Source: a virus | Length of the DNA: 64,000 bases | IMG/VR virus record: IMGVR_UViG_3300046542_000227 | Location: 62,001-126,000 of that record | Reading direction: 5' to 3' (one strand) | Shown here: in pieces, positions 22,389 to 26,562 of the stretch | How positions within the stretch are numbered: the first letter of the stretch is position 1 | How the letters are laid out: the number at the start of each line of letters is the position of its first letter | Notes under the pieces: generated by a model | The model's database searches: none | What the model was told of the DNA's origin: nothing | What the model saw: only the letters and a program-made list of their open reading frames with translations | Made by a program: the position numbers and the translations under genes

Positions 22389-22760
22389 TTATGGCAGGCG
22401 TTTGAACGGGCGGTCGATACGCACCAGTACAGTAGCGGCAGTACCGCGGTACAAACGGATACGGATAGCACCGTTGGTTTTGATACCACCGGACACAGTC
22501 GATTCAGCGTCGATGAAATAACCGTTGGTGTCAGAACCCACTTGGTCATCGAGCAGCTTGACCGAGATACGCGCCGACGACAAATCGAACTGGGCGTTAT
22601 CAGTTGGCATCAACGTAACCAGGCTGTAGTCCTTGGTGCCGTTAGCGGGGATAGTGACCTGTTCGAAGACCAACGGCTTACCACCTGCCTTGGCGAAGTG
22701 CAGCAGCTTCTGGACCATGGCGGTGAACTTTGTAACGAAGGCAGCGGATTTCGTAGTCAT
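22389..22760 (-). CDS. Small partner of the large minus-strand virion gene, 123 aa
   Basis: SD AAAGAGGTATATT before ATG (reverse strand). Helical N-terminus (KSAAFVTKFTAMVQKLLHFAKAGG) followed by a beta-rich region ending IRIRLYRGTAATVLVRIDRPF, the type of fold seen in small head/tail decoration or adaptor proteins. Cotranscribed with and upstream of the 997-aa gene, so may be its partner. Confidence 0.65.
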   Translation of the reverse strand: MTTKSAAFVTKFTAMVQKLLHFAKAGGKPLVFEQVTIPANGTKDYSLVTLMPTDNAQFDLSSARISVKLLDDQVGSDTNGYFIDAESTVSGGIKTNGAIRIRLYRGTAATVLVRIDRPFKRLP

Positions 22761-22791
22761 GAATATACCTCTTTGCTTGAATTTACTTGGG

Positions 22792-22801
22792 GTCTATATC
22801 A
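22792..22801 (+). promoter_or_regulatory. GTCTATATCA promoter-like box
   Basis: Copy of the recurring box just before the GIY-YIG gene; it lies in the intergenic space and would drive the + strand. Confidence 0.5.
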
Positions 22802-22829
22802 TTTCGCTGAAGGAACACTGGAGATAGCC

Positions 22830-23621
22830 GTGAACCCAAGAACCAATATCGCTGGGACCTATCCAGCCGACATCGCAACATACATACTGACCAATAAAGC
22901 GACTGGTCAATTCTACATGGGTTCGACGAATAATCTAGCCCGCCGTCTCAATCGTCACCGTAACGATCTTGAGAAAGGCACCCATCATTCCGACAAGTTA
23001 CAGTCTCAATTCTTCGGTTGGGAACACATCGAAATTGAATACACGATACATGCAGATCACGAGGCTGCTCTGCAAGCGGAACAGTGTCAGATCGATGAGC
23101 TCTATCTAGACCCGCTTTGCTGTAATGTTTCAACATGGTCACATGGTTTCTGGGGCGGTGCTTACGGTAAGCCTCAGGAGGTTAGGGATCGTGCTGCAAA
23201 TAAACTGAGAGGTTATAAACACACGGACGAGTTCAAGGAGAAGTGTCGGCAACGTATGCTCGGTTCGGTAATGTCCGCCGATCAAAAGGAGAAGATATCT
23301 GAGGCACTGTTAGGTCGTGTTGTCAGTGATCAGACACGCCAGCGGATTAGTGCTGCGCAAAAGGGTCGTGTCGACCCCAGTAAGTTTGGTCCGACTAGGG
23401 CATTAAAGGCAGTTGAAACGAAACGACTTAATGGAACGATGGGACACACAGAGGCATCTAAAGCCAAGATCGCTGCGGCTAACTTTAAATCCGTCGTGAT
23501 TGAGGGGGTAACCTATCCTTCACTTCAAGATGCCGGAGAGATACTCGGTTATGGTCGTCAGACGGTGGCCTATCGACTTAATTCTCCTAGTCGCAAATTT
23601 AAGGATTGGAATTGGGCTTAA
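22830..23621 (+). CDS. GIY-YIG homing endonuclease, 263 aa
   Basis: GTG start after GGAGATAGCC. N-terminal GIY-YIG nuclease: YILTNKATGQFYMGSTNNLARRLNRH (Tyr-Ile-Leu variant of GIY, Phe-Tyr-Met-Gly for YIG) with the catalytic Arg region, followed by a Glu/Gln helix. Repeated basic segments in the middle (NUMOD-like, HTDEFKEKCRQRMLG, ALLGRVVSDQTRQRI, HTEASKAKIAAANF) and a C-terminal SLQDAGEILGYGRQTVAYRL helix-turn-helix typical of DNA-binding NUMOD1. It sits on the + strand in a minus-strand region, between the helicase and virion genes, consistent with a mobile insertion. Catalytic Glu not checked. Confidence 0.82.
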   Translation: MNPRTNIAGTYPADIATYILTNKATGQFYMGSTNNLARRLNRHRNDLEKGTHHSDKLQSQFFGWEHIEIEYTIHADHEAALQAEQCQIDELYLDPLCCNVSTWSHGFWGGAYGKPQEVRDRAANKLRGYKHTDEFKEKCRQRMLGSVMSADQKEKISEALLGRVVSDQTRQRISAAQKGRVDPSKFGPTRALKAVETKRLNGTMGHTEASKAKIAAANFKSVVIEGVTYPSLQDAGEILGYGRQTVAYRLNSPSRKFKDWNWA

Positions 23622-23628
23622 CGGCATA

Positions 23629-23665
23629 GAGGGTGGCATTGCCACCCTCAGCCTTTTTCTTTTTA
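23629..23665 (+). terminator. Terminator after GIY-YIG gene
   Basis: GAGGGTGGC-ATT-GCCACCCTC stem with GCCTTTTTCTTTTT, convergent with the helicase gene. Confidence 0.8.
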
Positions 23666-25849
23666 CCAGCCAACAAACCCAGAGGATTGTGTTGAGTGTT
23701 TCGGAAGATCCCCTGCGAGATCGATACCGTAGTTGTTGAAGTGGGAACCCAATACTGCGTTGAATGCACCAGTATCGTCGTAGCCTGTTTGGTTGGCTAT
23801 TTCAACATCAAAATCCTCTAGTGATTCAGTAATGGCAAAGGGTGATTTGATTCCCATGATCTGCTCCACTTGCGACATGCTCCACTGGAGTATGTCCGAA
23901 GAGCGGGTAGAGATGTTAGCCTCTTCACCGGTATCCAAGTGGCACTGGTAAACAGTGGTCTGGGTGTCAGCACCGATACGGTGGATACGCGAGATTGCCT
24001 GTTCCTGAATGTAAGCACGGAACGGGGCATTGATCATGATCATGGTATCCGCCATCACCAGCGGTACAGCAGTCGACAACGAGTTGTACGTAGCGATCAA
24101 CGGATTGAGGGCTTCGTCTTGTTCGAACTTCTTGACGATCAGAGCGAGTTCATTGTTAGTCTTGCCGTATACTACCAGCGGACTCAGGTCAACGGACTTA
24201 CACTGTTCAGAAGCAGCTACCAGCGCTTCAACGAACGAGGTGAATACCAGCGTCTTCTTCATGGTAGTGTCAGCGATAGCCACGAAGTCGATGTGTTTAA
24301 CCATCTCAACGTGACACTCGATACGCTTACGTCCAAGCACACGGCCCAGACATTCACCCTGGATCTTCAGCTTGGTGTACTTGATCACCGACTTGATATC
24401 ACGGAACTCCTTCACCATCTCCTTAGGCAGGGATGGCTCGAAGTAGCGTTTCTCGTAAAGGTTAGTATACGCAATCTCTTCGCCGATGTAACGCGGGTCA
24501 GGGTTAGCGATTACCGTCTTCAACGTTTCACGGTACTTCTTGTATTCCATCTTCTGCGCTGCTGCACGCAACGTGTCTTCATGGAGTACCAAGCAGCGTT
24601 CCCAGAAACGTTCGTCATCCTTACGTCGTTTCTTGTAATACTCAACCCGTTCTTGGATAAATGCATCCATCACAGTACGGATCGCCGACAGGGTGTACAA
24701 CTTAGCCGTAGGCATCTTGACAGCAATGGTCTTCATGATCGGCTTGTCGAGCTTCAACGCCGACTTCTCGATCTTGTACGAGATCAGACCCATGCGGTTC
24801 TTCAGGATGTCCAGACCTTTGTTGCCGTCCTTACCGAAGATCTTACGGAAGCGCTCTTGCACTTGATCCGTGAACAATGGATCGAGGGTGATCAGCAACG
24901 GGATCAGTTCAGCACCCATGGCTTTAACCGGCGTACCCGAAGCTGGGATGATGTTCTTGCACTCAAGCTTCTTGCAGACTTCAATGAACTGCTGAGTCCG
25001 CATCGATTTGATCTCGTTGAGGTTGTGCGACTCATCGAGGATAATCACCGAGTTGTTAGCAGCCAATGCGCCATTGTTGATCAGGGTCAACAGCTTATCG
25101 AGGGCCTCGTAATGAACGATAACAATCCGCTCATTGTTGTAAGGCTTACCGAACTCAGCAACCCAGTAGGACTGCTGCTCTTTGTATTCCTCAACGACGG
25201 TCTTTTGCCATACGCGCTGGGTGGCGTTCTTCGGACAGATCACAATGATCTTGTCAGCATCTACACCTTCGGCTACGTACAGGGCGCCCATGGTCTTACC
25301 GGAACCTGCTGCACCGGCTAGCAGATAACCATTGAGACCGTACTGATCGACGACAGTATCGTAAGTATCGAGGAACCCATATTGGTGATCGAGTGGGGTC
25401 TTGTAGAAGCGCTTGTAGTTCGCCTTGTTCAAACGACCTACTGGATCGACAGTCGGCAGGGTCTTACCGATCCACGTCTTCTCGAACAGTTCCTTACGGA
25501 TGTTGTTGAGGACACGAACCGAAGTACCAGTTCGAGACTGGATCAACAAGTCGAGCATATAGACAACGTCAGTCGCAAAGAACTTATAGAAGCTGAAGCT
25601 ACTACGACCGAAGGTGTTGAACATGTGCATGGCGATCTTGGACGTTTTCCAGACCTTGGCCATGTCACGTTGCATGACGTCAGCAGGAACCCCTTCCACG
25701 ATAATCTCAGTGGCGGTTTCCTTTACGTTGATAGCACCGAAGGCTCGACGAAAACCTGCGAACATTTCCATGCTGGGTTGTTCGATCATAAATGCCGGAT
25801 TGAAGTGTGGCTGCCGGCCTAGCTGTGGCTCAGATAGTTGATGCTGCAT
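23663..25849 (-). CDS. SNF2-like superfamily 2 helicase/ATPase, 728 aa
   Basis: Helicase domain: Walker A GAAGSGKT (about residues 178-185), Walker B LDESHN (about 273, a DESH variant of DExH), motif III ASGTPV (about 303), C-terminal lobe with VFTSFVEALVAASEQ, motif V-like region and motif VI QAISRIHRIGAD (about 615-626). N-terminal 150 residues carry a family-specific extension. In SF2/SNF2 phage proteins this translocates on DNA; likely role in phage replication, recombination or transcription. The antisense 483-aa frame is a shadow. Confidence 0.85.
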   Translation of the reverse strand: MQHQLSEPQLGRQPHFNPAFMIEQPSMEMFAGFRRAFGAINVKETATEIIVEGVPADVMQRDMAKVWKTSKIAMHMFNTFGRSSFSFYKFFATDVVYMLDLLIQSRTGTSVRVLNNIRKELFEKTWIGKTLPTVDPVGRLNKANYKRFYKTPLDHQYGFLDTYDTVVDQYGLNGYLLAGAAGSGKTMGALYVAEGVDADKIIVICPKNATQRVWQKTVVEEYKEQQSYWVAEFGKPYNNERIVIVHYEALDKLLTLINNGALAANNSVIILDESHNLNEIKSMRTQQFIEVCKKLECKNIIPASGTPVKAMGAELIPLLITLDPLFTDQVQERFRKIFGKDGNKGLDILKNRMGLISYKIEKSALKLDKPIMKTIAVKMPTAKLYTLSAIRTVMDAFIQERVEYYKKRRKDDERFWERCLVLHEDTLRAAAQKMEYKKYRETLKTVIANPDPRYIGEEIAYTNLYEKRYFEPSLPKEMVKEFRDIKSVIKYTKLKIQGECLGRVLGRKRIECHVEMVKHIDFVAIADTTMKKTLVFTSFVEALVAASEQCKSVDLSPLVVYGKTNNELALIVKKFEQDEALNPLIATYNSLSTAVPLVMADTMIMINAPFRAYIQEQAISRIHRIGADTQTTVYQCHLDTGEEANISTRSSDILQWSMSQVEQIMGIKSPFAITESLEDFDVEIANQTGYDDTGAFNAVLGSHFNNYGIDLAGDLPKHSTQSSGFVGW

Positions 25850-25914
25850 GGGGTGCCCTATGTTCTAAGGTAGTTAGACTATAAAATTAGCTTCTTTTGC
25901 CTAGCATGTATTGT

Positions 25915-26073
25915 ATGTACGAGGTTTCGACAGAAACCTGAGTAGGAGGTGATCCAGCTCTCGCGGTAATCGTATCCCCCGAATCACTGATGGCATTGCT
26001 GTGAAGCTGACGCCGGGCGATTCACAGGCACCTTGTACGGTATAGAGCCAGCCCGGGCCCTGGGCTGGTTTTA
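25915..26073 (+). ncRNA. Candidate small RNA with 16S rRNA 3'-end complementarity
   Basis: Order: TATG element at 25913, hairpin (25922-25939), single-stranded GGAGGTGATCCAGC (25945-25958) that is exactly complementary to GCTGGATCACCTCC near the 3' end of pseudomonad-type 16S rRNA, stem (25999-26027), then a terminator hairpin with TTTTATGCC. No start codon follows the SD-like stretch at normal spacing except a seven-codon GTG mini-ORF, so it does not look like a normal ribosome-binding site. RNA existence is inferred. Confidence 0.45.
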
Positions 26074-26078
26074 TGCCG
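26048..26078 (+). terminator. Terminator with CGGTATA/TATGCCG arms
   Basis: CCAGCCC/GGGCTGG stem with TTTTATGCCG, ending the candidate small RNA. Confidence 0.7.
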
Positions 26079-26085
26079 TTTAAAG

Positions 26086-26095
26086 CCTATATCAC
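26086..26095 (+). promoter_or_regulatory. CCTATATCAC promoter-like box
   Basis: Recurring box 65 nt upstream of the gene at 26161. Confidence 0.55.
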
Positions 26096-26123
26096 GAAAG
26101 GGAACATCTACTCAGCACCCTAA

Positions 26124-26133
26124 GTCTATATGG
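26124..26133 (+). promoter_or_regulatory. GTCTATATGG box (variant)
   Basis: Second CTATAT element 28 nt before the gene at 26161; could be a second start or an overlapping operator. Confidence 0.4.
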
Positions 26134-26160
26134 GGTCTGTCTCCTGTAATAGAGGCTTTT

Positions 26161-26562
26161 ATGTTAATCGATCAAATTCTAATGCACATGGCTTTAGTAC
26201 GTGGTTTACGTCTGTGCCGTGTGAGTACGCAACGCTTCGATTTGAAGACTGCTTTAGATAGCGACAAGCCAGTGATCTTCTGGCACACCAGTAATGGTAT
26301 CGACTATCTGGGCTATGAACTGCTCACCACCGATCGGTTCAATAGTCATGTGCCATTCGGTCACTTGCACAGTAAGATCGAATGCTACCACGGTGGCTAT
26401 CGTGTCCACGGTATCTGTGGTAGCTTCTTTCTGGAATATGGAGGGGTGTTGGTAAAGGCTACCGAGATATGGCCAGTTGACTTAATCGCGTATCTCGGTG
26501 ATGGCTTGGTGGATCGTTACCGAGTTGGTATATCGATGGAGCACAAACAGGTGCCGCAATGA
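26161..26562 (+). CDS. Unknown protein, 133 aa
   Basis: First gene after the divergent promoter region. Contains VIFWHTSNGIDYLGYELL and CYHGGYRVHGICGSFFLEYGG; a His/Cys-rich centre may bind metal. ATGA overlap with the next gene. Function not recognised. Confidence 0.7.
   Translation: MLIDQILMHMALVRGLRLCRVSTQRFDLKTALDSDKPVIFWHTSNGIDYLGYELLTTDRFNSHVPFGHLHSKIECYHGGYRVHGICGSFFLEYGGVLVKATEIWPVDLIAYLGDGLVDRYRVGISMEHKQVPQ

Follow-up and report, generated by a model that had tools for sequence, protein, structure and literature searches.

The intergenic locus and its predicted RNA

The window analysed here is a 64,000-nt stretch of DNA, positions 62,001-126,000 of the IMG/VR record IMGVR_UViG_3300046542_000227. 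This 267-kb virus record is the genome of a phiKZ/Noxifer-like jumbo phage, whose nearest annotated relative is Noxifer. The locus is an intergenic stretch of 311 bases (25850-26160) between a helicase gene on the minus strand and an ORF on the plus strand, and it holds a predicted non-coding RNA; according to the ORF list of the window, the strand opposite the RNA is intergenic too. The features, in order, are the following.

23663-25849, minus strand: SNF2/DEAD helicase, homologue of phiKZ gp203, divergent from the RNA and outside it; syntenic neighbour in most relatives
25914-25917, plus strand: TATG motif, resembling the late promoter of the phiKZ non-virion RNA polymerase (nvRNAP; G = +1); TATAG in phiKZ-type relatives
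25917-26079, plus strand: predicted ncRNA of about 163 nt, from the G of TATG to the terminator; 21 homologues, covarying stems
25917-25924, plus strand: 5' strand of the closing stem P1, GTACGAGG, partner 26031-26038; covariation
25925-25936, plus strand: P2 hairpin, TTTC/GAAA around GACA, extendable to 25923-25938
25944-25959, plus strand: AGGAGGTGATCCAGC(T), complementary to the 16S tail and located in the P2-P3 junction; pairs with 16S 1525-1540, predicted duplex of -31.9 kcal/mol
25981-26023, plus strand: 3' arm, made of P3 (25981-25985/26019-26023), an inner stem (25991-25994/26012-26015) and P4 (25998-26000/26005-26007); covariation
26001-26004, plus strand: GNRA loop GTGA capping P4; GTGA, GAGA, GCGA or GGGA in nearly all homologues
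26031-26038, plus strand: 3' strand of P1, CCTTGTAC; covariation
26037-26079, plus strand: intrinsic terminator, inverted repeat AGCCAGCCC..GGGCTGGTTTTAT and a T-run, overlapping the end of P1
26088-26095, plus strand: TATATCAC, similar to the phiKZ early promoter, 3' of the terminator; TATATYAC is kept in Noxifer, L125, phiKZ and others
26161-26562, plus strand: next ORF, 133 aa, which opens the downstream operon, outside the RNA

From 5' to 3', the RNA is thus composed of P1, P2, a junction with the 16S complement, the P3/P4 arm with its GNRA loop, the second strand of P1 and the terminator hairpin. A first-pass annotation of the window had described a small RNA candidate at 25913-26073 followed by a terminator. 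The terminator stands, as a strong inverted repeat with a T-run (26037-26079), but the RNA runs further, to about 26079. The complement does lie between two hairpins, as that annotation had it, namely the 5' hairpin at 25923-25938 and the 3' arm. Downstream of the RNA, a hairpin followed by a T-run is found in 18 of the 21 homologues by a simple criterion, and in the remaining three by eye.

The start of P1 adjoins TATG (in the Noxifer group and a new group) or TATAG (in the phiKZ type) in every member. In phiKZ the late promoter is TATG, with G as +1, and the middle promoters have AAanTTACc near -24 (PMC4666361). An (A)TAC block resembling the middle-promoter motif is also present in most phiKZ-type members, some 20 bases upstream; the window has only TATG. 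The non-virion RNA polymerase of the phage probably transcribes the RNA from TATG or TATAG, and the transcript would end at its own terminator.

Past the terminator, TATATCAC has the form TATATYAC, similar to the phiKZ early promoter, and it probably serves the next gene, whose product has no family match in Pfam or PHROG. The annotated start of NOXIFER_232 (L001 3199-3729) falls between the terminator hairpin of the RNA and TATATCAC; the alignment to the window suggests that the true start is about 96 bases downstream of the annotation. On the upstream side of the helicase, a conserved minus-strand motif, GCTAAT(C/T)TTAT, is found in the window (25880-25893) and in relatives; its plus-strand form is AAGTCATAAGATTAGC in phiKZ, D6, Psa21 and IMG/VR relatives. 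It is probably the helicase promoter. In L309, a 250-kb contig, the match to the helicase homologue comes in two stretches within one open frame of 1318 aa, as in PhiPA3 and PS119XW, which suggests an insertion in the helicase, possibly an intein. The ORF at 22542-23621 on the plus strand has a GIY-YIG catalytic domain, a NUMOD3 motif and a sub-threshold match to an I-TevI-type DNA-binding domain; it is homing endonuclease-like, and the surrounding structural genes are on the other strand.

Homologues and covariation

The same RNA is present in 20 other phages or contigs, which makes 21 members with the window. The corresponding region of Noxifer aligns to the window at 73%, and AGGAGGTGATCCAG is identical there and in a third relative, L125. 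In phiKZ, the syntenic site between PHIKZ203 and PHIKZ204 reads AAGGGGGTGATCCAG. Scans of IMG/VR added L171, L174 and L179, then L302, L305, L309, L312, L314 and L316.

Two covariance models, R1 and R2, match the window at 25912-26043 and 25910-26043, respectively. The first model, constructed from five phiKZ-type members, gives one site per clade record (L125 excepted) and no site in another eleven jumbo phages. The second is independent and derives from a set of five contigs that includes four without demonstrated adjacency of the RNA to the helicase; it recovers all 21 RNAs, the window with an E-value of 6.5e-4. Neither the complement pattern nor the two models matched jumbo phages of other hosts or groups (Erwinia, Klebsiella, Vibrio, Serratia), nor Goslar, OBP, Aeromonas PS2, pTD1 and phiRU, under strict filters that a diverged complement could escape. 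In Rfam release 15, the window gives only tRNAs at the gathering threshold, and eight relatives give nothing relevant at E-values up to 5. The RNA is a new family with an unusual target.

In the first-model alignment (14 sequences), 95.5% of the pair cells are standard pairs, compared to 75% after shuffling, and both sides have changed in 14 of the 18 pairs. With 21 sequences, 91.5% of the cells are paired versus 63.5% in shuffled alignments (a level reached in 0 of 500 shuffles), and there are 123 double-change cells versus 37; controls in which the strands were slid pair at 28-43%. P1 has double changes in five of its seven pairs and is 99.3% paired across the 21 sequences, while P2 has them in all four pairs and is 95.7% paired. 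These alignments were fitted to the models, which gives some bias favouring structure; despite this, the fold agrees with the slid controls and with RNAalifold, run independently, which predicts 17 pairs, 12 of them with double changes.

The RNA and the helicase are divergent in most members, but they are co-directional in PhiPA3, where the helicase is downstream of the RNA. At least three contigs have the RNA far from the helicase, at 18-45 kb, and other contigs differ in their neighbouring genes. This variable orientation and distance indicate that the RNA is an independent gene.

Complementarity to the 3' end of 16S rRNA

The 14 nt of GGAGGTGATCCAGC at 25945-25958 are complementary to the 3' end of 16S rRNA, as the first-pass annotation had noticed. 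The match to the host is in fact longer: the A at 25944 adds a fifteenth nucleotide, so that AGGAGGTGATCCAGC (25944-25958) is perfectly complementary to the Pseudomonas 16S 3' end (...GGCTGGATCACCTCCTTA, verified in many Pseudomonas genomes), and a G-U pair at 25959 brings the pairing to 16 positions. The 14-mer is unique in the 267-kb phage genome, where its reversed control does not occur, and nowhere else in that genome is there a target for the complement (reverse also zero).

The pattern GGRGGTGATCCA was scanned for in 23 whole jumbo-phage records. It is present at the RNA site in all 12 Pseudomonas phiKZ-clade records, once per genome there; away from this site there is one match each in Viktualia (coding) and in an Erwinia phage, with no match at all for the reversed pattern. 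This contrast excludes a chance match. In the first IMG/VR scan with the 14-mer, its frequency among the matches listed was near chance level, and a scan with the E. coli-type 18-mer TAAGGRGGTGATCCAAYC returned four unrelated contigs, none of which has this RNA.

Position by position, all 21 RNAs can pair with 16S 1528-1540, 19-20 of them with 1525-1527, 18 with 1541 and 13 with 1542. Beyond these limits, 5/21 pair at 1543 and 7/21 at 1524, and the match therefore ends at the mature 3' end on one side and in the middle of the 3' strand of h45 on the other. For six of the 21 members, the search pattern already spanned 1525-1542; when they are subtracted, the counts are 14/15 at 1525, 13/15 at 1526, 14/15 at 1527, 12/15 at 1541 and 7/15 at 1542.

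The complement is also far more conserved than its surroundings: 12 of the 14 core columns are invariant, compared to 7 of the 73 ungapped columns elsewhere, and identity to the window is 13-14/14 in the complement but 31-68% outside it. The one freely variable core base, opposite U1537, is only A or G, both of which pair with U; indeed, GGAGG is replaced by GGGGG in 13 of the 21 members, which keep the pairing with U1537 as G-U. Predicted duplexes with 16S range from -26.6 to -36.8 kcal/mol, versus about -10.7 for a strong 7-nt Shine-Dalgarno (SD) sequence. In single-sequence folding, the complement is not notably more open than the rest (mean unpaired 0.44 versus 0.39 elsewhere), and it can fold on itself into a weak GGR/YCC hairpin.

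A likeness of the window's CGCGGTAAT and the relatives' CTAACTACG to the 16S 530-loop region was also considered. It is short and the two are not conserved together, and it was taken as chance.

Proposed function and alternative readings

Sequence comparison gives good support to the RNA gene, its fold and a 16S target site with sharp limits, and from these we infer transcription, 30S binding and an effect on translation. A conserved folded RNA with a nearly unchanging complement of the 16S tail suggests that the virus grips host ribosomes by means of RNA. We consider it fairly probable that this is a stand-alone, trans-acting phage RNA that would pair with the anti-Shine-Dalgarno tail of the host 30S subunit, occupying or capturing subunits. 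The earlier proposal of a small RNA with an extended 16S complement, candidate for engaging the 30S subunit, is strongly supported by the comparison of 21 phages and contigs, including the covarying stems, the complement in 12 of 12 phiKZ-clade records and the pairing limits at 16S 1525-1542.

In the proposed mechanism, P1, P2 and the P3/P4 arm would frame a junction presenting 14-18 nt complementary to mature 16S 1525-1542, i.e., the whole free tail with the anti-Shine-Dalgarno, plus the outer strand of h45. The RNA would pair with the tail of free 30S subunits; pairing to 1525-1529 would, however, need part of h45 to be opened. By occupying the anti-Shine-Dalgarno, it would capture the subunit without initiation, because no start codon follows. 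The outcome may be that initiation is biased against SD-led host mRNAs, or that 30S subunits are held ready for the phage. Phage mRNAs use SD sequences too, so blocking every 30S subunit would harm the phage, and dose and timing must matter.

The same RNA and target could also be put to positive use, tethering or recruiting 30S subunits (to phage messages, the surface of the phage nucleus or a phage protein) or sensing free ones. This would fit a complement that lacks a start codon and a conserved fold that might serve as a protein-binding body; in phiKZ, mRNAs and tRNAs sediment together with the ribosomal subunits (PMC8545117). There is, however, no known protein partner, and the sequence favours neither capture nor delivery; this use is possible, if clearly less probable than capture. 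It is unlikely that the RNA acts in cis on the downstream operon, as a leader or attenuator whose terminator is controlled by 30S binding. Many relatives do have an operon downstream of the RNA, and in the window the terminator hairpin touches P1. However, in most relatives the fold is not an alternative to the terminator, and the neighbours vary, with the helicase downstream in PhiPA3 and different genes in other contigs. Nor does the segment look like part of a longer mRNA that it would lead, the outcome which the first-pass annotation named as refuting its proposal: what follows the RNA is a terminator-like hairpin, then an early-promoter-like TATATYAC belonging to the next gene. A structured cis-regulator of the adjacent gene was rejected on similar grounds, the neighbour and orientation being variable and a terminator-like hairpin lying downstream.

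An extended SD for a short peptide had been suggested as well, in the form of a super-SD for a seven-codon leader. The AGGAGG-like core is indeed followed by a short frame (VIQLSR), and a 90-bp ORF is annotated over the RNA in Viktualia. However, the window has no ATG, GTG or TTG at a usable distance from the complement, as the first-pass annotation had itself stated, and its frame (GTG-ATC-CAG-CTC-TCG-CGG-stop) has six codons and begins within the SD itself. Among 15 members compared, no start codon 4-14 nt downstream and no frame is conserved: 10 lack a start at usable spacing, the few TTG or GTG are not conserved, and the GTG frame, which overlaps the SD, has anything between 4 and 65 codons. 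Outside Viktualia itself, the 90-bp ORF is open in 201phi2-1 alone. With no conserved start or frame, the leader-peptide idea fails and we regard it as very improbable; together with the covarying fold, the same data characterise the predicted RNA as non-coding, as a candidate ribosome-associated ncRNA (rancRNA) should be. A DNA-level element (origin or packaging site), or a chance or rRNA-derived fragment, is equally hard to credit. The invariant block is short and intergenic, as such an element could be, but selection at the RNA level is shown by compensatory changes (G-U pairs among them), by the GNRA loops and by terminators on the same strand; besides, there is no likeness to 16S antisense beyond 18 nt, and pairing ends at the mature end. 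Least probable of all is a decoy for RsmA/CsrA acting through a GGA motif. AGGAGG adjoins a hairpin in the window, but the A/G variation opposite U1537, which removes GGA in 13 of 21 members and keeps the 16S pairing, contradicts it.

RsmY/RsmZ-type sponges, of phages or bacteria, carry GGA between hairpins and titrate a factor; the phage RNA differs in that GGA is not kept, and it does not qualify as a CsrA/RsmA sponge, in which GGA motifs are conserved, mostly in several copies and in loops. A normal Shine-Dalgarno sequence pairs over 4-9 nt and is followed by a start codon. The phage RNA has the same anti-Shine-Dalgarno partner, but a complement of 14-18 nt, a surrounding fold and no start codon. 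The closest functional precedent is SprF1 from Staphylococcus aureus, a ribosome-associated ncRNA with a purine-rich stretch by which it binds ribosomes; it decreases initiation (PMC8938821). This RNA is a type I antitoxin, for which that paper describes no complementarity of 14-18 nt to the 16S tail; it lacks the junction fold of the phage RNA, and the two sequences are unrelated. Grad-seq of phiKZ revealed ncRNAs from the 3' UTR of PHIKZ298 and the 5' UTR of p40, the latter partly in 30S fractions (PMC8545117). These come from the same phage group, but from other loci, and they derive from mRNA UTRs; the paper makes no mention of the PHIKZ203/PHIKZ204 locus or of 16S complementarity. No statement of 16S complementarity for the RNA was found in the literature covered, and its transcript may have been seen earlier in full phiKZ transcript maps.

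We give even chances to the broader claim that this is a viral RNA family seizing host small subunits via the entire 16S 3' tail, a translation-takeover device not described before. To our knowledge, the known translation-takeover factors of nucleus-forming jumbo phages are proteins. If the claim is true, jumbo phages, which co-opt ribosomes through protein factors, would have an RNA counterpart to these that reaches the ribosome directly, and the laboratory phage phiKZ carries it. As a phage RNA, it would treat the anti-Shine-Dalgarno as a substrate and not as a start signal, and it could serve as a tool for tuning translation or capturing 30S subunits.

Small annotated ORFs lie over the RNA gene in Viktualia (CDS0006, L136 1778-1867) and HPP-Temi (CDS0187-0189, L138 2089-2507); they are not conserved and are probably spurious. 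Four contigs of small phages (L308, L310, L315 and L317), unrelated to the phage RNA, have an 18-nt complement of the 16S tail which overlaps the stop codon of a gene and has a GC hairpin after it; about 57 nt downstream lies the start of the next ORF. The complement there may be a site for ribosome standby or coupling.
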